From Clostridia bacterium (GTDB lineage Bacteria > Bacillota > Clostridia > Oscillospirales > Acutalibacteraceae), in NCBI GenBank assembly GCA_017471765.1, contig JAFURT010000006.1:1-64000 (forward strand): 64,000 nucleotides of DNA, given 5' to 3'. The first letter of the stretch is position 1; every line of letters starts with the position of its first letter. This document shows positions 5,302-17,848 of the stretch, one piece after another. Position numbers and translations under genes: made by a program. Below the pieces are notes generated by a model, which was not told where the DNA came from, did not search any database, and saw only the letters and a program-made list of their open reading frames with translations.

Positions 5302-7554
5302 TTACAGCATGCTTAATTGCTCACCAAAATCCTCCGCCTGGGGCATAGCGCCGGCGGCAGGCAGCGTCTTGGTGCGATAGCGGTTCTCTTTGGTCAGAGA
5401 GCCAGCCACATAGGGGGACACGCTCTGTAGAACGTGACGGCCTTTCAGTGTCATCACCTGCACGCCAATCGTGCTACGGGTAGACTTAGGCGCAATGGCA
5501 CCGGTATGCACCAGCAACCGGCGGCCGGAGGTGGCAGTCAGCACAAACTCGGTATCCTCCGGCACGTAATATACAGCAATCAGCGGTGATTTGTCACTGT
5601 AAGCACCAATCAGCTTGCGCCGATTGGTCTTGGTGGCATAGGCCTCCATCTCCACCTTGGCTACCTTACCGTTTTCATAGAAGAACAGCATATAGCCGGT
5701 GTATTCCGACAGCACCGCCATATACCGGGTAGACTCCCCCTCATCAAAGCCCAGCTTGGCGGGGATATAATCGCCCATAACGCTGGTCTTCGTGTCCTTA
5801 AAGTCATTGGCGTGGCTCTTATACACCGCACACTTATCGCTGAAGAACAGCAGGTCACGGTTGTTGGAGGTTTCCACCGTCTGGACGATCTCATCCCCCT
5901 CCTTGAGTTTATGCTCGCCGCTCATGCGCAACGACTGAGGAGTAATCTTCTTGAAGTAGCCCTCCCGGGTAAAGAACAGCGTGCAGGCATAGTCGGCCAC
6001 CGGCGGCTCTTCCTCCTGCTCGGCAATAATATCGGTCGCATAAACAATCTCGGTACGCCGGGGCTGGCCGTATTTTTTGGCCACCGTCTGCAGTTCCTCG
6101 ATGATGATGCGGCGGATGCGACTCTTGCTGGCCAGGGTTTCCTCCAGGTCGGCCACCGTCTTTTCCAGATCGGTGACATCATCCAGGCGTTTGAGGATGT
6201 ATTCCCGGTTGAGATGACGCAGTTTGATCTCAGCCACATACTCGGCCTGCACCTGATCGATACCGAACCCAATCATCAGGTTGGGAACCACCTCGGCTTC
6301 TTCGTCGGTCTCCCGGACGATGCGGATAGCCTTGTCGATATCCAGCAGAATTTTCTCCAAGGCTTTGAGCAGATGCAAGCGCTCCTTAGCCTTTGTCAAG
6401 TCATAGTAGGTGCGGCGCTTCACACTCTCCACACGGAAGGCGATCCACTCCTGCAACAACTCACGGACGCCCATCACCTGGGGTACACCGCCCACCAGGA
6501 CGTTGAAGTTACAGCCGAAGGAATCCTCCAGCGGTGTCAGGGCGAACAGCCGGTTCATCAGCTTATCCGGATCGGTGCCACGCTTGAGGTCAATGGTGAT
6601 TTTCAGACCCTTCAGGTCGGTTTCGTTACGGATATCGTTGATTTCCTTAATTTTTCCGGCCTTGACCAGCTCCACCACCTTGGTGATAATCGCCTCAATG
6701 GAGGTGGAATACGGAATCTGGGTGACCTCGATGCAGTTGTTTTCCTTATCGTAATTGTACACACTGCGCACCCGCACACTGCCACGGCCGGTGTTGTAGA
6801 TTTTCTCCAGCACCTCGCGCTCGTAGATGAGCTGTCCGCCGCCGGGGAAATCCGGAGCTTTCAGGGTGGAAAGGATGTCGTGATCAGGATCCTTCATCAC
6901 CGCCACGGTGGTGTCGCACACCTCCTGCAGATTGAAGGAACAGATGTTGCTGGCCATACCGACAGCGATACCCAGATTGTTGTTCACCAGGATGGACGGA
7001 AAGGTCACCGGAAGCAACGTGGGCTCTTTCATGGTGGCATCGTAGTTATCCACAAAATCCACCGTATCCTTGTCAATATCCCGGAACAGTTCTGCCGCAA
7101 TAGGCGCCAGCTTCGCCTCGGTATAACGGGAGGCGGCGCACTCCATATCGGAGGAATACGCCTTACCGAAGTTACCCTTCGACTCCACATAGGGATGCAA
7201 CAGCGCCTCGTTACCACGGGACAGACGCACCATGGTATCGTAGATGGCCGCATCGCCGTGGGGGTTGAGCTTCATGGTCTGACCGGCGATACTGGCGGAT
7301 TTGATGAGACCGCCGGTAAGCAGGCCCATCTTATACATCGTATATAACAGCTTGCGGTGAGAGGGCTTGAAGCCGTCGATCTCCGGGATGGCACGGGACA
7401 TGATTACGCTCATGGCGTAGGGCATATAGTTTTCCCGCAACGTATGGGTAATCAGTTGCTGCTCTACCTCACCCGCCCCGGCAATGTGGGCATTTTCCGG
7501 CAGGCCGGAGAGCGGCTCTGCCCCATCGGTTTTTTTCTTCTTTTTGGTAGCCAT
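5302..7554 (-). CDS. Type II topoisomerase A subunit (divergent ParC/GyrA)
   Basis: A 750-aa protein with the DNA gyrase/topoisomerase IV A fold. The winged-helix catalytic region carries the active tyrosine in RYTEAKL near residue 125. A tower and coiled-coil follow, then a C-terminal beta-propeller-like region. It cuts and rejoins DNA together with the B subunit encoded 12 bases upstream. There is no GyrA box, so decatenation (topo IV-like) is more likely than supercoiling. The region that binds quinolones in other enzymes reads NPHGDAAIYD: the first His of HPHGD is Asn, and the usual Ser is Ala. GGAGG precedes the start. Both subunits look unlike standard gyrase, so this may be an additional type II enzyme. 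Confidence 0.9.
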   Translation of the reverse strand: MATKKKKKTDGAEPLSGLPENAHIAGAGEVEQQLITHTLRENYMPYAMSVIMSRAIPEIDGFKPSHRKLLYTMYKMGLLTGGLIKSASIAGQTMKLNPHGDAAIYDTMVRLSRGNEALLHPYVESKGNFGKAYSSDMECAASRYTEAKLAPIAAELFRDIDKDTVDFVDNYDATMKEPTLLPVTFPSILVNNNLGIAVGMASNICSFNLQEVCDTTVAVMKDPDHDILSTLKAPDFPGGGQLIYEREVLEKIYNTGRGSVRVRSVYNYDKENNCIEVTQIPYSTSIEAIITKVVELVKAGKIKEINDIRNETDLKGLKITIDLKRGTDPDKLMNRLFALTPLEDSFGCNFNVLVGGVPQVMGVRELLQEWIAFRVESVKRRTYYDLTKAKERLHLLKALEKILLDIDKAIRIVRETDEEAEVVPNLMIGFGIDQVQAEYVAEIKLRHLNREYILKRLDDVTDLEKTVADLEETLASKSRIRRIIIEELQTVAKKYGQPRRTEIVYATDIIAEQEEEPPVADYACTLFFTREGYFKKITPQSLRMSGEHKLKEGDEIVQTVETSNNRDLLFFSDKCAVYKSHANDFKDTKTSVMGDYIPAKLGFDEGESTRYMAVLSEYTGYMLFFYENGKVAKVEMEAYATKTNRRKLIGAYSDKSPLIAVYYVPEDTEFVLTATSGRRLLVHTGAIAPKSTRSTIGVQVMTLKGRHVLQSVSPYVAGSLTKENRYRTKTLPAAGAMPQAEDFGEQLSML

Positions 7555-7566
7555 ACTCTCTCCTCC

Positions 7567-9534
7567 TTACTCCAGATCCAGCATATCCAGATACTCGTGA
7601 CCATGCTCGGAAATAATGCGCTTGCGGCCCTCCAGATCATCACCCAGCAATACATCAAACACCTGGGCGGTCTCCAAGGCGTCGGTGGGGTTCACCTTGA
7701 CCAGTCGACGGGTAGCCGGATTCATGGTGGTCAGCGCCATCATGGCGGGCTCGTTTTCACCAAGTCCCTTGGAGCGCTGGATGGTATATTTCTGCCCGTC
7801 GATCTCCTCCAGAATTTTGGTCTTTTCTGCCTCGTTGTAGGCAAAATACGTGTCTGCCTTGGTGTTTATTTCATACAGCGGCGTCTCTGCGATATACACA
7901 TACCCCTGCTCAATCAGCGTGGGGGTCAGGCGATACAGCATGGCCAAAATCAGTGTACGAATCTGGAAGCCATCCACGTCCGCATCGGTACAGATGATGA
8001 TCTTATTAAACCGCAAAAGGTTAATGTCAAAGGTGGCCAGGTTTTTATTGGACTTGGAACGAACCTCGACACCACAGCCCATGACCTTCAGCAGGTTGAC
8101 GATAATTTCACTCTTAAATATCTTATCAAACTCCGCCTTCAGACAGTTGAGGATCTTACCGCGCACCGGAATGACCGCCTGAAACTCCGAATCACGAGCC
8201 TGCACAACGGCACCCATAGCGGATTTACCCTCCACGATGAACAATTCACGTGCCGAGGCGTCCCGGCTACGGCAATCTACAAAGCCGGGAACATGGGAGG
8301 TCATGTCGTTGCTGGTCTGCAGAGTTTTTTTCAGGTTAAGACGAGTAGTCTCCGCCTTTTCACGACTGCGCTTGTTAATAAGCACCTGCTCACACAGCTT
8401 GTCCGCATCCATCTTATTCTCGATGAAGTAGACCTCCAGGTTATGTCGCAGGAACTCTGTCATGGCCTCCTGAATAAACTTATTGGTAATCGCCTTTTTG
8501 GTTTGGTTTTCGTAGGAGGTCTGGGTGGAGAAGGAGGAAGACACCAACACCAGGCAATCCTGGATATCCTGGAAGGTAATCTTTGACTCATTCTTCAGAT
8601 ATTTGCCGTTTTGCTTAAGATAGGCATCCACCTGGGAAACAAAAGCGCTGCGCACCGCCTTATCCGGGCTGCCGCCATGCTCCAGCCAGCTGGAATTGTG
8701 ATAATACTCCAGCACGCTCACCTTATTGGAGATGCACATAGCTACGTTCAGCTTGACCTTATATTCCGGCTTGTCCGCACGGTCGCGACCAATCCGTTCA
8801 GCCGACCATGTCTGCATCGCCGTCAAGGATTGCTCCCCTACCAGTTCCTTCAGATAATCAGAAATACCGTTTTCGTACATGTATTCCTTCGTGGTAAAGG
8901 CTTTCCCCTCCTGGTTGCGGAACTGGAACAGCAGACCGGGGTTGACAATAGACTGCCGGTGCAGGGTATCGTCAAAATACTCGTACGGAACCGAAATATC
9001 GGTAAACACCTGAATATCCGGCTTGAAGCGGATACGAGTACCGGTATCTTTCTTGGCATAGGGCTCTTTTTTCAGCCCCCCCACATTCACACCATGCTCA
9101 AAATGGAGTGAGTACAGGAAACCGTCACGCTTTACCTCCACATCCATATACTCCGAAGAGTACTGGGTCGCACAAGCGCCCAGACCGTTAAGGCCCAAGG
9201 TAAAGTCATCGTTATCGTATTTACCGCCAGCGTATAGCTCGCAGAAAATCAGCTCCCAGTTAAAGCGTTGCTCCTTGGTATTGTAGTCTACCGGCACACC
9301 GCGGCCAAAGTCCTGCACCTCAATGGAGCCGTCCTCGTACCGGGTAACGAGAATCTTGTCGCCGTAACCGGCACGGGCCTCATCCACCGAGTTGGATAAA
9401 ATCTCAAACACGGCATGCTGACAGCCCTCCAGCCCATCAGAGCCAAACATAACGCCCGGACGCTTACGTACACGGTCAGCGCCTTTAAGGGCGGTAATGC
9501 TCTCATTATCATAGGTTGTTTTTTTGGTGGCCAT
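7567..9534 (-). CDS. Type II topoisomerase B subunit (divergent ParE/GyrB)
   Basis: A 655-aa ATPase subunit. The N-terminal GHKL domain shows SNSVDEA, DFGRGVPVD and GLNGLGA. The transducer carries the QTK loop (NQTKKAI). The Toprim domain has EGKSAMGA in place of the common EGDSAGGS and TDADVDGFQIRTL in place of TDADVDGxHIRTL; the metal-binding Glu and Asp residues are kept. A C-terminal GLGE motif and tail follow. It drives strand passage with the A subunit just downstream, and the pair forms one operon. Sequence differences from normal GyrB/ParE are marked, so I leave the symbol empty; parE-like is the best guess. The start is ATG with a weak ribosome site AAAGGATGG further upstream than usual. 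Confidence 0.9.
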   Translation of the reverse strand: MATKKTTYDNESITALKGADRVRKRPGVMFGSDGLEGCQHAVFEILSNSVDEARAGYGDKILVTRYEDGSIEVQDFGRGVPVDYNTKEQRFNWELIFCELYAGGKYDNDDFTLGLNGLGACATQYSSEYMDVEVKRDGFLYSLHFEHGVNVGGLKKEPYAKKDTGTRIRFKPDIQVFTDISVPYEYFDDTLHRQSIVNPGLLFQFRNQEGKAFTTKEYMYENGISDYLKELVGEQSLTAMQTWSAERIGRDRADKPEYKVKLNVAMCISNKVSVLEYYHNSSWLEHGGSPDKAVRSAFVSQVDAYLKQNGKYLKNESKITFQDIQDCLVLVSSSFSTQTSYENQTKKAITNKFIQEAMTEFLRHNLEVYFIENKMDADKLCEQVLINKRSREKAETTRLNLKKTLQTSNDMTSHVPGFVDCRSRDASARELFIVEGKSAMGAVVQARDSEFQAVIPVRGKILNCLKAEFDKIFKSEIIVNLLKVMGCGVEVRSKSNKNLATFDINLLRFNKIIICTDADVDGFQIRTLILAMLYRLTPTLIEQGYVYIAETPLYEINTKADTYFAYNEAEKTKILEEIDGQKYTIQRSKGLGENEPAMMALTTMNPATRRLVKVNPTDALETAQVFDVLLGDDLEGRKRIISEHGHEYLDMLDLE

Positions 9535-14927: not shown

Positions 14928-15009
14928 GCGGGCGTGGTGGAACGGCAGACACGCTGGTCTTAGGAGCCAGTGCCACGGCGTGCGGGTTCAAATCCCGCCG
15001 CCCGCACCA
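14928..15009 (+). tRNA. tRNA-Leu (anticodon TAG)
   Basis: Acceptor GCGGGCG pairs with CGCCCGC, then A and encoded CCA (15007-15009). The anticodon loop CTTAGGA within CTGGT/GCCAG gives anticodon TAG. A short variable arm and a GTTCAAA T-loop follow. It is 82 nt, a class II tRNA. Its 3' half is repeated 180 bp downstream, making it the anchor of the islet that follows. Confidence 0.95.
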
Positions 15010-15185
15010 AAATACGGGTACAGCCTCTTGGCTGTACCCGTATTTTCGTCTGGGTGGTGCTTTGAGGTTTTTGTTCCGCCGTATTTTTGCCCCTGCAAAA
15101 ATACAGGGTTTTCGTCCGAACATATCCACGCATTCCGGCGCACCTACTCATCTCGGCGAAAACCGGGGTTCAAAATCCCGCCGCC
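15008..15185 (+). repeat. Left copy of a 178-bp direct repeat behind tRNA-Leu
   Basis: This stretch matches 17633-17810 with a single visible difference (T versus C about 60 bases in, in GAGGTTTTTG versus GAGGTCTTTG). It starts with the tRNA terminator hairpin and ends in a near copy of the tRNA-Leu 3' half: GGGGTTCAAAATCCCGCCGC, continuing to CCGCACCA at 15191. The pattern is that of an attachment-site or tandem duplication at a tRNA end. Confidence 0.9.
15011..15044 (+). terminator. Terminator of tRNA-Leu
   Basis: AATACGGGTACAGCC and GGCTGTACCCGTATT form a perfect 15-bp stem with loop TCTT, followed by TT. The same hairpin recurs in the right repeat copy, and its 3' half recurs a third time at 17811-17848. 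Confidence 0.85.
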
Positions 15186-15193
15186 CGCACCAT

Positions 15194-15231
15194 GAAAAAC
15201 GACAAGTTTCGACAGAAACTTGTCGTTTTTC
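15194..15231 (+). terminator. Perfect 17-bp palindrome with four-base loop
   Basis: GAAAAACGACAAGTTTC and GAAACTTGTCGTTTTTC are perfectly complementary around GACA. It looks like a strong terminator and sits immediately after the tRNA-like end, at the entry to the islet. Confidence 0.75.
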
Positions 15232-15418
15232 AATGAAGCGTTCCCCTCGGGAACATGATGTCGCTACGCTAATGATGTCACTTTGTTAATGATGTGTTGC
15301 TTCGCAACATGAAGGAACGCTTCGCATCATAAATGAGCGAAGCGAATTTACATCATATTGCGCACAGCGTAATGCATCATATCGACGAGGTCGATGCATC
15401 ATTTTCGTGAGAGTTCGA
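15232..15418. repeat. Array of short hairpins punctuated by ATGATG / CATCAT
   Basis: Small palindromes (GTTCCC-GGGAAC, GTTGC-GCAAC, TTCGC-GCGAA, CATCGACC-type) are separated by ATGATG(T) on the left and CATCAT on the right. The array is thus itself roughly an inverted repeat: AGCGTTCC at its left end pairs with GGAACGCT in the middle. No protein-coding frame is convincing. I recall comparable arrays in gut Clostridia but cannot name a family. Confidence 0.6.
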
Positions 15419-15443
15419 ATTCATACGCAAGAACGGCATAATT

Positions 15444-15487
15444 ATCTTTTTTGTAGCCCCTAGACATCTAAAGGCTACAAAAAAGAT
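15444..15487. repeat. Inverted repeat at the left end of the gene cassette
   Basis: ATCTTTTTTGTAGCC (15444-15458) pairs with GGCTACAAAAAAGAT (15473-15487). The left arm plus the following bases (to 15466) recurs in direct orientation at 17612-17634 with one difference. The right arm is the exact inverse of 17610-17626. Confidence 0.7.
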
Positions 15488-15494
15488 ATAGCCA

Positions 15495-15527
15495 CAGAAA
15501 AACTCTGATTCTGTCAGGGTTTTTCTG
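15495..15527 (+). terminator. Terminator-like hairpin in the islet
   Basis: CAGAAAAACTCTGA pairs with TCAGGGTTTTTCTG (one wobble), followed by TTTTTAT. Confidence 0.55.
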
Positions 15528-15656
15528 TTTTTATAGGCAAAAATTTAGTTGTCAATTTGAGTGTACAAAAAAGATATTTTTCTCAAGCCTGCCTCGAACT
15601 CTTGCGAAACCGCATAATCACCACCAAGTTCATGGATACAAAACAATTCACTGCGC

Positions 15657-15685
15657 TTTACAAATGCAGAGATTTATGTTTTAAT
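15657..15685 (+). promoter_or_regulatory. Candidate promoter of the two-gene islet operon
   Basis: TTTACA (15657-15662), 17-bp spacer and TTTAAT (15680-15685), about 60 bp before the TTG start of the membrane protein. Confidence 0.45.
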
Positions 15686-15744
15686 AAAAATAAAACGGAG
15701 CGAAAACTTTTTTTGTAAAACTTCCGGATAAAGGAGTGATTTCG

Positions 15745-16164
15745 TTGAAATATGCGTCGAAAAAGCAGATTTGGTTGTGCATAAGCGCACTGCTCGGTGG
15801 CACGATTCTTTCGACTTTTGCGGCGGTATTGGTTTTGCGCAACCTTGGAGGTTTGATTGGAATGTTCGTTGAAGCGGATGCGGACGCTGCATTTGACTTT
15901 GTAAGCATTTTTGAGCAAACAAAAGATGCACAGATTGCTCCGCACTGGTTGTTCCCTTTGCTTCTGTTTGGAACCTATGCTTTTGCGCTTTGGCGCTTTT
16001 CCCCAATAGCCAAGCAATCTGCACTACACATCATCCTTTGGACTATCTTATTTGTGTTGCTGTTGACAGTTGGTTTTGCTTGCTCGCTGATGCTTACGCG
16101 TGTCAACGATATTCGCTTTGGTGATCTGCTTGCGGCACTTTTACCCGTCATCGGCAGTCTATAA
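15745..16164 (+). CDS. Small polytopic membrane protein of unknown function (139 aa)
   Basis: I do not recognise the family. At least three strong hydrophobic helices are visible (IWLCISALLGGTILSTFAAV near residues 9-30; HWLFPLLLFGTYAFALW near 66-84; ILWTILFVLLLTVGFACSLML near 96-117), and possibly a fourth at the end. A polar, acidic loop lies after the first helix (EADADAAFDF). The start is taken as TTG at 15745 because AAAGGAG lies eight bases upstream; a GTG at 15736 touches that site. It is the first gene of a two-gene unit, 11 bases before the ceramidase-like lipoprotein, so the two products may work together at the membrane. Base composition is poorer in GC than the flanks. Confidence 0.65.
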   Translation: MKYASKKQIWLCISALLGGTILSTFAAVLVLRNLGGLIGMFVEADADAAFDFVSIFEQTKDAQIAPHWLFPLLLFGTYAFALWRFSPIAKQSALHIILWTILFVLLLTVGFACSLMLTRVNDIRFGDLLAALLPVIGSL

Positions 16165-16175
16165 GGAGGCATAAG

Positions 16176-17567
16176 ATGAAACGAAATATAATCAGGATTC
16201 TGATTTTGATTCTTATATCGTGCTTGCTGTTATCGTCTTGCTCGCCATATATGAAGTTCTTCTCGTCCAAGGAAGGAACTTGGCGTATGGGCTTTGGTTC
16301 AGAGGAAATTGCATTGCCCGAGGAAAGCAATCAACCGCTTTACATCGCGGGTTATCATGCAGGCTGCGAAATTACGGGTGTATTGGATCTGCAACGCGCG
16401 AACGCTGTTTGGGTAGACACGGGCAGCAACGGTATTTTGTTGATTGGCATTGATTGCGTGGGGCTCGGCAAGGACACAGTGGACACGATTCGTAAGGAGC
16501 TAGCTAGCTTTTGCCGTAAGGTGGGGTGTATTTCAGTCAACGTATATGCCACACACAGCCACGCCGGAGCAGATACACTGGGACTTTGGGGTCCCACAGC
16601 AATCGACGGCAAAAACCAAGCTTTCATGACGAATCTTATCAATGCAGCCGTCTCCGCCGCTAAAGAGGCGTATGCAGATCGCTGTGCAGGTACCCTGCAC
16701 TATGGCAACACCGTGCCAGAGGATATGTTGCACGATTCCAGGTTACCCATCGAATATGATCCCATACTTCACCAACTGCGTTTTATTCCGAGTGACGAAT
16801 CGAAAAACGGCATTCGTCTGCTCTCCTATGCTGCGCACGCCGAATCTCTGCGTGGTGATAACACTATGCTCAGCCGCGATTTTCCAGGCACATTGGCAGA
16901 TAACCTTCTACAAGCCTGCGGCGATGATATGTTGTATTTGCCGAGTGCTATCGGCGGACTGATCATGACTCGCGAACTGGTCACGCCTTTCGACGCGGTA
17001 ACGAATATGCAGTATACAGCAGAACGTATTACCGAATCTGTATTGTCAATATGTGATGAAACTGAACTCTCTCCAAACCTCTCGTTTTCAAGTGTTTCTA
17101 TGCAGGTGCCACTGGATAATACCTTGTTTTTCTATTACAAATTTCTTGGCATTCTCGGTAATGAGACGAGTCGCGGAAAAAGTGATACCGGTTATGTGAT
17201 TCACAGCGAGCTTAGCGTTTTGACGCTAGGTTCGGTTACCTTTGCGCTTATCCCGGGCGAAATATTCCCTGAACTCGTCAGTGGTCAAGGACTAAGCGAT
17301 GGTGATCCCGAAGCACTTGAACATATTGCCGCACGTTATGGTGTGGAACGTCTTTTGATTGTTGGATTGTGCAACGATGAGCTCGGTTATATCATGCCAC
17401 CAAGCGACTTTTTGCTTAACGATGAGCTACCATATATTGAAACGGTAACGGATGACATGGGTGAAAATCACTACGAGGAAACCAATTCTACTGGAAGAGA
17501 AACTGCCGCTCGTATTGCGAAAGCATTTGAAACGGCATTAAAAAAGCAAAAGGAACTAAATAGCTAA
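16176..17567 (+). CDS. Ceramidase-family (neutral/alkaline, non-lysosomal type) lipoprotein
   Basis: A 463-aa protein. Residues 1-22 are a lipoprotein signal with lipobox LSSC (Cys22), so it is likely anchored outside the cytoplasmic membrane. The body resembles the N-terminal catalytic domain of neutral/alkaline ceramidases. It begins with a conserved start block (MGFGSEEIALP), has THSHAGAD at residues 126-133 (metal-binding His pair, compare THTHSGP), AAHAESLRGDN further on, and a late LIVGLCNDELGYIMPPSDF block. Such enzymes hydrolyse N-acyl amide bonds of ceramides; distant homologues of this size in Gram-positives have unproven substrates. It lacks the C-terminal immunoglobulin-like domain of full ceramidases. 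It belongs to the acquired islet behind tRNA-Leu. Confidence 0.78.
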   Translation: MKRNIIRILILILISCLLLSSCSPYMKFFSSKEGTWRMGFGSEEIALPEESNQPLYIAGYHAGCEITGVLDLQRANAVWVDTGSNGILLIGIDCVGLGKDTVDTIRKELASFCRKVGCISVNVYATHSHAGADTLGLWGPTAIDGKNQAFMTNLINAAVSAAKEAYADRCAGTLHYGNTVPEDMLHDSRLPIEYDPILHQLRFIPSDESKNGIRLLSYAAHAESLRGDNTMLSRDFPGTLADNLLQACGDDMLYLPSAIGGLIMTRELVTPFDAVTNMQYTAERITESVLSICDETELSPNLSFSSVSMQVPLDNTLFFYYKFLGILGNETSRGKSDTGYVIHSELSVLTLGSVTFALIPGEIFPELVSGQGLSDGDPEALEHIAARYGVERLLIVGLCNDELGYIMPPSDFLLNDELPYIETVTDDMGENHYEETNSTGRETAARIAKAFETALKKQKELNS

Positions 17568-17580
17568 ATGTCTTTTTGTG

Positions 17581-17605
17581 AGCGGTTAATCTCAAATAAA
17601 CCGCT
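17581..17605. terminator. Hairpin after the ceramidase-like gene
   Basis: AGCGGTT pairs with AACCGCT around a short AT-rich loop, 14 bases after the stop codon. T-rich DNA follows within a few bases. Confidence 0.5.
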
Positions 17606-17609
17606 ACAA

Positions 17610-17634
17610 ATATCTTTTTTGTAGCCCATAGACA
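17610..17634. repeat. Right end copy of the islet inverted/direct repeat
   Basis: ATATCTTTTTTGTAGCC (17610-17626) is the exact inverse of 15473-15489. Extended to 17634, it is also a direct copy (one mismatch) of 15444-15466. It marks the right boundary of the two-gene cassette, directly touching the right 178-bp repeat. Confidence 0.75.
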
Positions 17635-17810
17635 AAATACGGGTACAGCCTCTTGGCTGTACCCGTATTTTCGTCTGGGTGGTGCTTTGAGGTCTTTGTT
17701 CCGCCGTATTTTTGCCCCTGCAAAAATACAGGGTTTTCGTCCGAACATATCCACGCATTCCGGCGCACCTACTCATCTCGGCGAAAACCGGGGTTCAAAA
17801 TCCCGCCGCC
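17633..17810 (+). repeat. Right copy of the 178-bp direct repeat
   Basis: Identical to 15008-15185 except for one base. It ends inside the tRNA-like 3' end (after CCCGCCGCC) and lacks the final CGCACCA. There the sequence switches to a partial third copy. Confidence 0.9.
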
Positions 17811-17848
17811 TCTTGGCTGTACCCGTATTTTCGTCTGGGTGGTGCTTT
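17809..17848 (+). repeat. Partial third copy of the repeat start
   Basis: TCTTGGCTGTACCCGTATTT and the bases up to GGTGCTTT repeat 15026-15063. After it, the sequence becomes unique (AAAGTGATACTG). This probably is the original DNA that followed the tRNA-Leu terminator before the insertion or duplication. Confidence 0.8.

Follow-up and report, generated by a model that had tools for sequence, protein, structure and literature searches.

A probable integrase-less mobile cassette behind a tRNA-Leu gene shares its ends with a family found at tRNA CCA ends in Clostridia

The tRNA-Leu locus and its repeats

The stretch analysed here, called the window, comprises positions 1 to 64,000 of contig JAFURT010000006.1 from a Clostridia bacterium of the Acutalibacteraceae (GenBank assembly GCA_017471765.1). 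Downstream of a tRNA-Leu gene it contains a two-gene segment, cassette A, which is probably a mobile cassette without an integrase of its own. Between the tRNA and cassette A lie a 183-bp unit ending in a near copy of the tRNA 3' end, CCA included, which we call a T-unit, and a non-coding unit B. A second T-unit and part of a third follow on the far side. Coordinates of the features are given in Table 1. Other genomes, contigs and loci are referred to by handles beginning with G, C and L, respectively.

Table 1. Features of the tRNA-Leu locus in window coordinates
Feature	Position	Strand	Description
tRNA-Leu (UAG)	14928..15009	+	CCA end is the kind of site used by these elements
T-unit 1	15010..15192	+	Terminator-like hairpin (~15010-15045), structured region, tRNA-like T-arm and acceptor end finishing in CCA
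Putative insertion point	15191..15192	+	CA in the tRNA-like CCA of T-unit 1; CA core in 30/30 left-end loci
Unit B	15193..15464	+	Non-coding; terminator-like hairpin 15193-15232, palindromic hairpin array, right end ~15406-15464
CA core, B/A junction	15465..15466	+	
Cassette A, putative integrase-less mobile cassette, 2166 bp	15467..17632	+	
Left end of A	15467..15615	+	Half-site 15467-15489; terminator-like hairpin and T-run 15494-15535; inner half-site copy 15564-15579; inverted T-arm-like motif 15594-15609
Cargo gene 1, small membrane protein, 142 aa	15736..16164	+	Membrane nature by eye; no family match
Cargo gene 2, ceramidase-like lipoprotein, 463 aa	16176..17567	+	
Right end of A	17608..17632	+	Half-site ATATCTTTTTTGTAGCCCATAGA and flank
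CA core, right junction of A	17633..17634	+	
T-unit 2	17635..17807	+	Copy of T-unit 1, probably displaced by insertion; starts with the terminator-like hairpin also found after the tRNA
Partial third T-unit	17808..17848	+	100% identical

A sequence-only reading of the window had described two 178-bp repeats, 2625 bp apart and differing by one mismatch, and the alignment bears this out: 15008-15185 and 17633-17810 are identical at 177 of 178 positions. The second tRNA-like end described in that reading is also present, the last 20 nt of tRNA-Leu being repeated exactly at 15173-15192, and it runs to 15192 rather than 15191. The partial third copy exists as well and starts at 17808, not 17809. 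The reported hairpin arrays are real structures, since T-unit 1 (z -8.25 against dinucleotide shuffles) and the stretch 15193-15466 that contains unit B (z -7.77) both fold far more stably than shuffled sequences, none of 200 shuffles being as stable in either case. The islet is AT-richer, as had been proposed, with a GC content per 500 bases of 0.37-0.52 over the islet and 0.53-0.57 to its left. At the Rfam gathering threshold only tRNAs match in the window, and there is no match to RtT RNA.

Bridging position 15192 to 17635 restores the tRNA's own junction with its hairpin, CACCA followed directly by AAATACGGG. Because the bridged junction equals the tRNA-hairpin junction, T-units 1 and 2 may once have stood side by side, the DNA between them having been inserted at the CCA of the first. 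Tandem T-units free of cargo, in three copies with a period of 157 bp, are found in a member of the same genus (L009).

T-units of 150-185 bp, lying behind tRNAs and ending in a tRNA-like 3' end, were seen in the window and at L009, L010, L016 and L162-L165. Three of the four T-units at tRNA-Trp may contain the 3' half of the tRNA as a degenerate inverted copy (7, 4 and 1 of 300 shuffles as good for these three; 61 of 300 for the fourth). We do not rely on such copies, since 117-291 of 300 shuffles matched the comparisons of the tRNA-Leu type.

Ends and cargo of cassette A

Cassette A is bounded by near-identical inverted ends of 23 nt. Read inward, the left end is TCTAAAGGCTACAAAAAAGATAT and the right end, taken from the opposite strand, is TCTATGGGCTACAAAAAAGATAT; a CA dinucleotide lies just outside both. 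Half-sites symmetric about a dinucleotide are substrates of serine recombinases, and the CA-flanked inverted ends of A appear to fit the anatomy of a serine-recombinase attP. The sequence-only reading had taken the 178-bp repeats for the edges of a mobile element. Our analysis instead places the edges of A at 15467 and 17632, with CA at 15465-15466 and 17633-17634; these ends recur with other cargo at many tRNAs, and the repeats occur in tandem without an insertion at L009.

The earlier gene assignments hold in part. The 463-aa lipoprotein is ceramidase-like, although its match to Ceramidase_alk is weak and lies below the Pfam cut-off (19.3 against 32.1 bits). The 142-aa protein, which is a membrane protein by eye, has no match in Pfam or in a phage collection. 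As noted before, no integrase is present, neither of the two genes having an integrase-like match in Pfam. The cargo has no NCBIfam match and no defence annotation in PADLOC, and the lipoprotein has no match in the PDB. Of 250 genomes of the family, 40, among them that of the window, encode homologues of the lipoprotein (E <= 1e-40). G009 and G183 have similar gene pairs with no cassette ends nearby; the G009 pairing rests on size and position, the match of the small protein there not being significant.

A family of cassettes with shared ends

We scanned the exact 30 bases of the left end of A, excluding the junction, over one genome each of 84,980 species. The pattern occurs in 30 contigs from 27 genomes, all of them metagenome-assembled. 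Contig titles give Clostridia, Clostridiales, Oscillospiraceae and, once, Ruminococcus, and 20 of the 30 name goat, sheep, deer or buffalo gut. CA stands at the predicted place in all 30. A complete tRNA ends exactly on this CA in 15 contigs, with eight isotypes represented (Trp, Ser, Tyr, Gly, Gln, Pro, Ala and Leu). In the 15 others, L084 lies against another element's right end and L074 begins at the contig edge with its T-arm intact. The remaining 13 left flanks end in CCA (11) or TCA (2) and are mostly tRNA-like, L095 being the least so, without a T-arm.

Both ends are present within the DNA examined in nine of the 30 contigs, giving complete cassettes of 2.3-4.5 kb. The sequence-only reading had proposed searching other genomes for the repeat with different cargo, and the repeat does occur elsewhere with other cargo. 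The joined ends are symmetric at 15-21 of 26 positions in the ten complete cases, window included, against shuffled maxima of 15-17 (2000 shuffles each). A hairpin at the end of a tRNA gene is usual. When the element is excised in silico, the left flank is joined to a terminator-like hairpin in all nine cassettes and in the window (-14.5 to -28.4 kcal/mol); in L084 and the window this left flank is the right end of the neighbouring unit.

Right ends were compared at 32 loci, two of which have no right end. The tails of 25 of the other 30 fold better than at least 98 of 100 shuffles, and five do not. Among 394 genomes of the order, 89 match a 67-base right-end query at E <= 0.001, matches of all lengths counted. 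Four of the matches are among the right-end loci; the others can include remnants and B-like units. The exact left- and right-end patterns have no hits in viral contigs, where distant forms were not sought. With this result, and with no match for the 142-aa protein in the phage collection, carriage of the cassettes by phages was set aside.

A second unit with the same right end occurs in the window's genome behind another tRNA-Leu (L179; G000:C27, ~6814-7830) and encodes a 23S_rRNA_IVP-family protein and a 109-aa protein. A similar 23S_rRNA_IVP-family pair follows tRNA-Gln in G147 (L105). At L085, the 5' part of tRNA-Pro and its upstream sequence are duplicated ahead of the tRNA-Pro gene.

The cargo of the cassettes varies. 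A mechanical listing of the nine complete cassettes gave 22 open reading frames (ORFs) of at least 60 aa, of which 21 were scanned with Pfam, with those of L084 taken from L097 and the 74-aa antisense ORF of L095 excluded. No recombinase, integrase, transposase or conjugation family was found in these 21 of 22 ORFs. Four complete cassettes carry recognised restriction-modification genes: L081 has an EcoRI-family endonuclease and a methylase fragment together with a YfhO-family membrane protein, and in L083, L085 and L095 N6-methylases are accompanied by a specificity protein or domain, matching type IIG models in PADLOC. A DUF4379 zinc-finger protein is encoded by L074, L084 and L092, with a sub-threshold restriction-endonuclease match in L074 and L092. 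L077 and L090 have no family match, and one of their proteins is nuclease-like by eye. Of the incomplete cassettes, two had ORFs scanned: L093 carries a type I-like fusion and L068 a Fic protein that matches a PADLOC candidate family.

Movement was assessed from pairs of cassettes that are similar over the DNA examined and whose upstream flanks, compared over at most 1.5 kb, have no match at E <= 1e-20. Four pairs with unrelated flanks show that cassettes have moved between loci. L067 and L083 are 97.3% identical over 2507 bp, both at tRNA-Trp loci. L082 and L090 (94.1%) lie at a unit behind tRNA-Trp and at tRNA-Ala, L079 and L088 (93.7%) at tRNA-Gln and tRNA-Trp, and L069 and L078 (92.1%) at tRNA-Tyr and at a unit behind tRNA-Ser. 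Within the window's genus, the tRNA-Trp site carries a cassette in G008 and none in the stretches of G007, G002, G003 and G006; this covers four of five congeners, G001 being unreadable there, and the remaining congeners have no long match at the site.

Serine-recombinase genes beside the same ends

Because the symmetry of the ends around CA pointed to a serine recombinase, the loci were read for one. In G190, three genes encoding proteins of 538, 286 and 547 aa lie ahead of a right end that adjoins a cassette. The first and third proteins match the Resolvase, Recombinase and zinc-ribbon families and carry the motif CRVS, while the middle protein matches part of the Recombinase domain only and has no Resolvase match. 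The two large recombinases also match the CcrB, CcrC and CcrA profiles (best E 2e-37), at 129 bits against a CcrB cut-off of 900.

Relatives of the first triplet gene occur at E <= 1e-90 in 21 of 250 genomes of the family, and in eight of these they are full-length at 58% identity or more (58-100%). A right end lies 3' of the triplet in seven of the eight loci with close homologues, the eighth (G224) being cut by the contig end. The half-site is 59-138 bp behind the triplet in G027, G202, G242 and G063 and ~0.25 kb behind it in G190; it is 3.9 kb (G131) and 6.0 kb (G154) away in the other two, with other genes intervening. One cassette stands in tandem with a recombinase triplet (L097), and for the others none was seen in the DNA examined. 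A cassette-end query (E <= 0.001) matches 46 of the 250 genomes, the window's own included, with some matches shorter than 30 bp. A gene of 118-121 aa precedes the triplet in six of the loci read (L139-L145); by eye, we take its product to resemble PemK/MazF proteins.

In two genomes the triplet, matched by tblastn in all three genes, belongs to a conjugative element. The G242 element spans 72.8 kb, from the CA of tRNA-Leu to a CA before a hairpin, and the G202 element spans 49.2 kb behind a tRNA-like end that ARAGORN does not call. Both have CA at both ends behind CCA, and their inverted ends agree at 18 and 19 of 26 positions (shuffled maximum 17). Each encodes a coupling protein and a relaxase (L156:15003-17180; L151:9713-12634, minus strand) in which a MobL domain precedes Sel1 repeats, and G242 also encodes a TraG-like ATPase. 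For the remaining six triplet loci, a left end was not seen in, or lay beyond, the stretches read.

The site in related genomes

The sequence-only reading had named as its refutation an identical arrangement in all close relatives, with no empty site and no other locus with the repeats. This does not hold, as the tRNA-Trp site described above and the tRNA-Leu site show. Cassette A is absent beside tRNA-Leu in all three congeners that have queH there (G003, G008 and G004). G003 has tandem T-units and G004 a B-type unit at the queH-side tRNA, and neither has the left half-site. At the G008, G003 and G004 loci, no counterpart was found of the antiporter gene that lies to the right of the islet in the window. 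The next gene in G008 is prfA-like, and in the window a prfA-like gene lies past the antiporter (genes named by eye).

In G008 the same tRNA-Leu, with queH upstream, is followed by a different islet (L033 reversed, 529-1640; G008:C30). Here a DMP19-family gene of 174 aa is enclosed by two T-units, which lie 939 bp apart and are identical at 154 of 177 alignment columns. The islet has CA at either junction, a terminator-like hairpin and a tRNA-like right end; a search at up to five mismatches found no half-sites of cassette A in it. Because this islet lies between such repeats and has other ends, more than one kind of unit uses the tRNA-Leu site. A T-unit of the Leu type is also found behind tRNA-Trp in G008 (L016/L161, G008:C14), where four congeners have other units. 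Its end agrees with the window's tRNA-Leu 3' end in 25 of 27 columns, while its agreement with its own tRNA-Trp is at chance level (73 of 300 shuffles as good). T-units therefore also seem to move between tRNA genes.

A model for insertion at tRNA CCA ends

We consider it probable that 15467-17632 is a non-autonomous, site-specific mobile cassette moved by a serine recombinase at a tRNA CCA. The ends of cassettes and conjugative elements appear to fit the anatomy expected of att sites of large serine recombinases, in which symmetric half-sites flank a central dinucleotide, here CA, where crossover would occur. Joined, the two ends of a cassette would form a symmetric attP with its half-sites around this dinucleotide. 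A serine recombinase would then insert the cassette at the CA within the 3' CCA of a tRNA or a tRNA-like copy, separating the tRNA from its terminator. This would leave the tRNA intact, and the left end of the cassette would bring a replacement terminator. Because the window's genome shows no triplet of the kind described above, mobilisation in trans is inferred, and the enzyme was presumably supplied by a visiting conjugative element with matching ends and the triplet; such exchange may continue at present. At the window's locus, two T-units would have stood in tandem, with unit B already in place at the tRNA-like end of the first; A would then have inserted behind B, moving the second T-unit 2.6 kb away and creating the repeat frame.

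Two suggestions of the sequence-only reading are accommodated here. An integrase-less element at a tRNA, probably mobilised in trans, agrees with the model, and a tandem duplication followed by insertion survives as part of it. Attachment by a tyrosine integrase through a long shared tRNA segment was rejected, as only CA is common to the junctions of A and the linked enzymes are serine recombinases.

Several observations weigh against the model. In the window's genome, which is 78.6% complete, no such triplet was seen, and its one protein with a Recombinase domain is only 33% identical to the query. The window's copy may be fixed, since its left half-site deviates from the consensus (TCTAAAGGC) and the T-arm motif of its right end is degraded. 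The end symmetry of L090 (15 of 26) does not exceed that of its shuffles (16), and a 103-aa antisense ORF in L081 resembles, by eye, the tail of a small resolvase, with no Pfam match. Some units, including B and the C27 unit of the window's genome, have the same right end and no left half-site; either not all are intact or another left end is in use. The presence of CA at 30 of 30 right-end loci is not independent evidence, as the queries span the core. The overlap of close triplets and cassette-end matches, which favours the model (five of the eight triplet genomes are among the 46 with end matches, P 0.006), is weakened in that this P ignores kinship and assumes the same 250 genomes in both searches, and some of the matches are short. 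Finally, the G008 islet lies between T-units without cassette half-sites, so the frame has more than one user and by itself is no proof of the cassette family.

Alternative explanations

The strongest alternative, which we nevertheless regard as unlikely, is decay: a conjugative or mobilizable element would have lost its recombinase and become immobile, leaving the cassette. The window's genome, with no close recombinase, agrees with decay, as do the deviating left half-site and right T-arm motif and a cargo that resembles ordinary chromosomal gene pairs. Decay does not readily explain why cassettes that are 92-97% identical in unrelated flanks encode no recognised recombinase, or why end matches are commoner than the close triplet (46 against 8 of 250).

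It is distinctly less probable that the T-units mark the mobile entity, with cargo travelling between two T-unit copies and cassette A a mere passenger. The G008 islet is the main reason to consider this, since its repeat copies frame another gene at the same tRNA without cassette half-sites, which also argues against dismissing the repeat frame altogether; the Leu-type T-unit behind tRNA-Trp adds that T-units move. Yet most cassettes with the ends of A are not framed by T-units as far as they were read, 15 of 30 lying directly on a tRNA, and tandem T-units exist without cargo. The two G008 T-units, moreover, differ at 23 of 177 columns and need not stem from one insertion.

Inverted ends of ~23 nt and a 2-bp duplication are formally compatible with a DDE transposon, or a derivative resembling a miniature inverted-repeat transposable element, that duplicates a CA target and prefers tRNA ends. 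We hold this to be very doubtful, given that the scanned ORFs of the complete cassettes contain no transposase family and that the genes beside the same right end in seven of eight loci are the serine-recombinase triplet. The view that nothing here is mobile, two genes having landed by chance in a post-tRNA unit with a fixed tandem duplication, could draw on the cargo-free T-units of L009 and the chromosomal relatives of the gene pair. It is scarcely credible, given that 30 contigs share these ends but carry other cargo, that cassettes lie at unrelated sites and that unit B occurs at a tRNA-Leu of another genus.

Comparison with known systems

In the cited part of PMC7563491, cis-mobilizable elements (CIMEs) derived from integrative and conjugative elements (ICEs) have attL and attR, lack integrase and conjugation genes and stand in tandem with related elements. 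The window's cassette resembles a CIME in lacking integrase and conjugation genes. Cassette ends and CA cores are similar to those of recombinase-bearing elements, whose enzymes may recognise them. The cassette differs in that its family has conserved ends of its own, measures 2.2-4.5 kb in the complete cases, carries varied cargo and occupies tRNA ends of several isotypes. Movement into unrelated flanks suggests mobilisation in trans and not only in cis.

Streptococcal ICEs are described, in the cited part of PMC4701971, with a serine-integrase triplet at one end, direct repeats of 2-8 bp and targets in mutT, traG and hsdM. The G242 and G202 elements are alike in their triplet, conjugation module and small direct repeats (CA), but here the target is the CCA end of a tRNA, and the middle protein of the triplet (G190) has no Resolvase match. 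In Dehalococcoides, the cited part of PMC3146451 reports tandem ssrA genomic islands (DsiB) with a CcrB-like recombinase, some without an integration module and regarded as possible cis-mobilizable elements. The islands described there differ in having 20-bp direct repeats and in using the ssrA gene only.

Staphylococcal cassette chromosome (SCC) elements include tandem and recombinase-less cassettes and carry restriction cargo. The recombinases described here score far below the Ccr cut-offs, and insertion is at a tRNA or tRNA-like CCA, not at the 3' end of rlmH. Integron cassettes are small, have variable cargo and are mobilised in trans by one tyrosine-recombinase system at one attI; here the linked recombinase is of the serine type and the landing sites are dispersed tRNAs. 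The rtT repeats behind E. coli tyrT are 178 bp long, stand in tandem and each contain a copy of the 3' end of the tRNA. T-units are similar in their tandem tRNA-end copies but have no Rfam match, and their end appears to serve as a landing site.

In the open-access library searched, which excludes most subscription papers and all bioRxiv preprints, we recognised no such cassettes. The parts are of known kinds, and what appears new is their combination in one family of small integrase-less cassettes at the CCA of several tRNA isotypes. A broader proposition, which we judge about evenly balanced between true and false, is that this is integron-like exchange without integron parts. A shared pool of small integrase-less cassettes, several carrying restriction systems and others ordinary operons, would circulate in an order of gut Clostridia through serine recombinases acting in trans. 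The universal tRNA CCA or its mimics would serve as landing site, the cassette's own terminator would spare the tRNA, and tandem units would accumulate. If true, a common route for restriction and other genes in gut Clostridia has been overlooked because the cassettes carry no integrase. It would also raise the question of how one set of serine recombinases reads the tRNA ends of several isotypes, the serine-integrase ICEs compared here using protein-coding genes in the parts of the sources cited.

Unit B and related hairpin arrays

The array of unit B consists of a perfect hairpin followed by further hairpins, with the spacer word ATGATGT in its left half and the inverse (ACATCAT-type) in its right half. 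The stretch 15193-15466 is 92.3% identical to a unit in another genus that begins at the first base past a tRNA-Leu (L182). This supports the borders of unit B, since the relative starts directly after the tRNA. Similar non-coding arrays lie directly 3' of tRNAs at L013, L023, L024, L029 and L182, in addition to 15193-15464 of the window. Each has a terminator-like hairpin and then hairpins with a short spacer word, direct in the left half and inverted in the right. They have the right end of the cassettes without the left half-site. The spacer word varies by locus, with ATGATGT, TGATATA, GTGAAGT and GTGATAT as examples.

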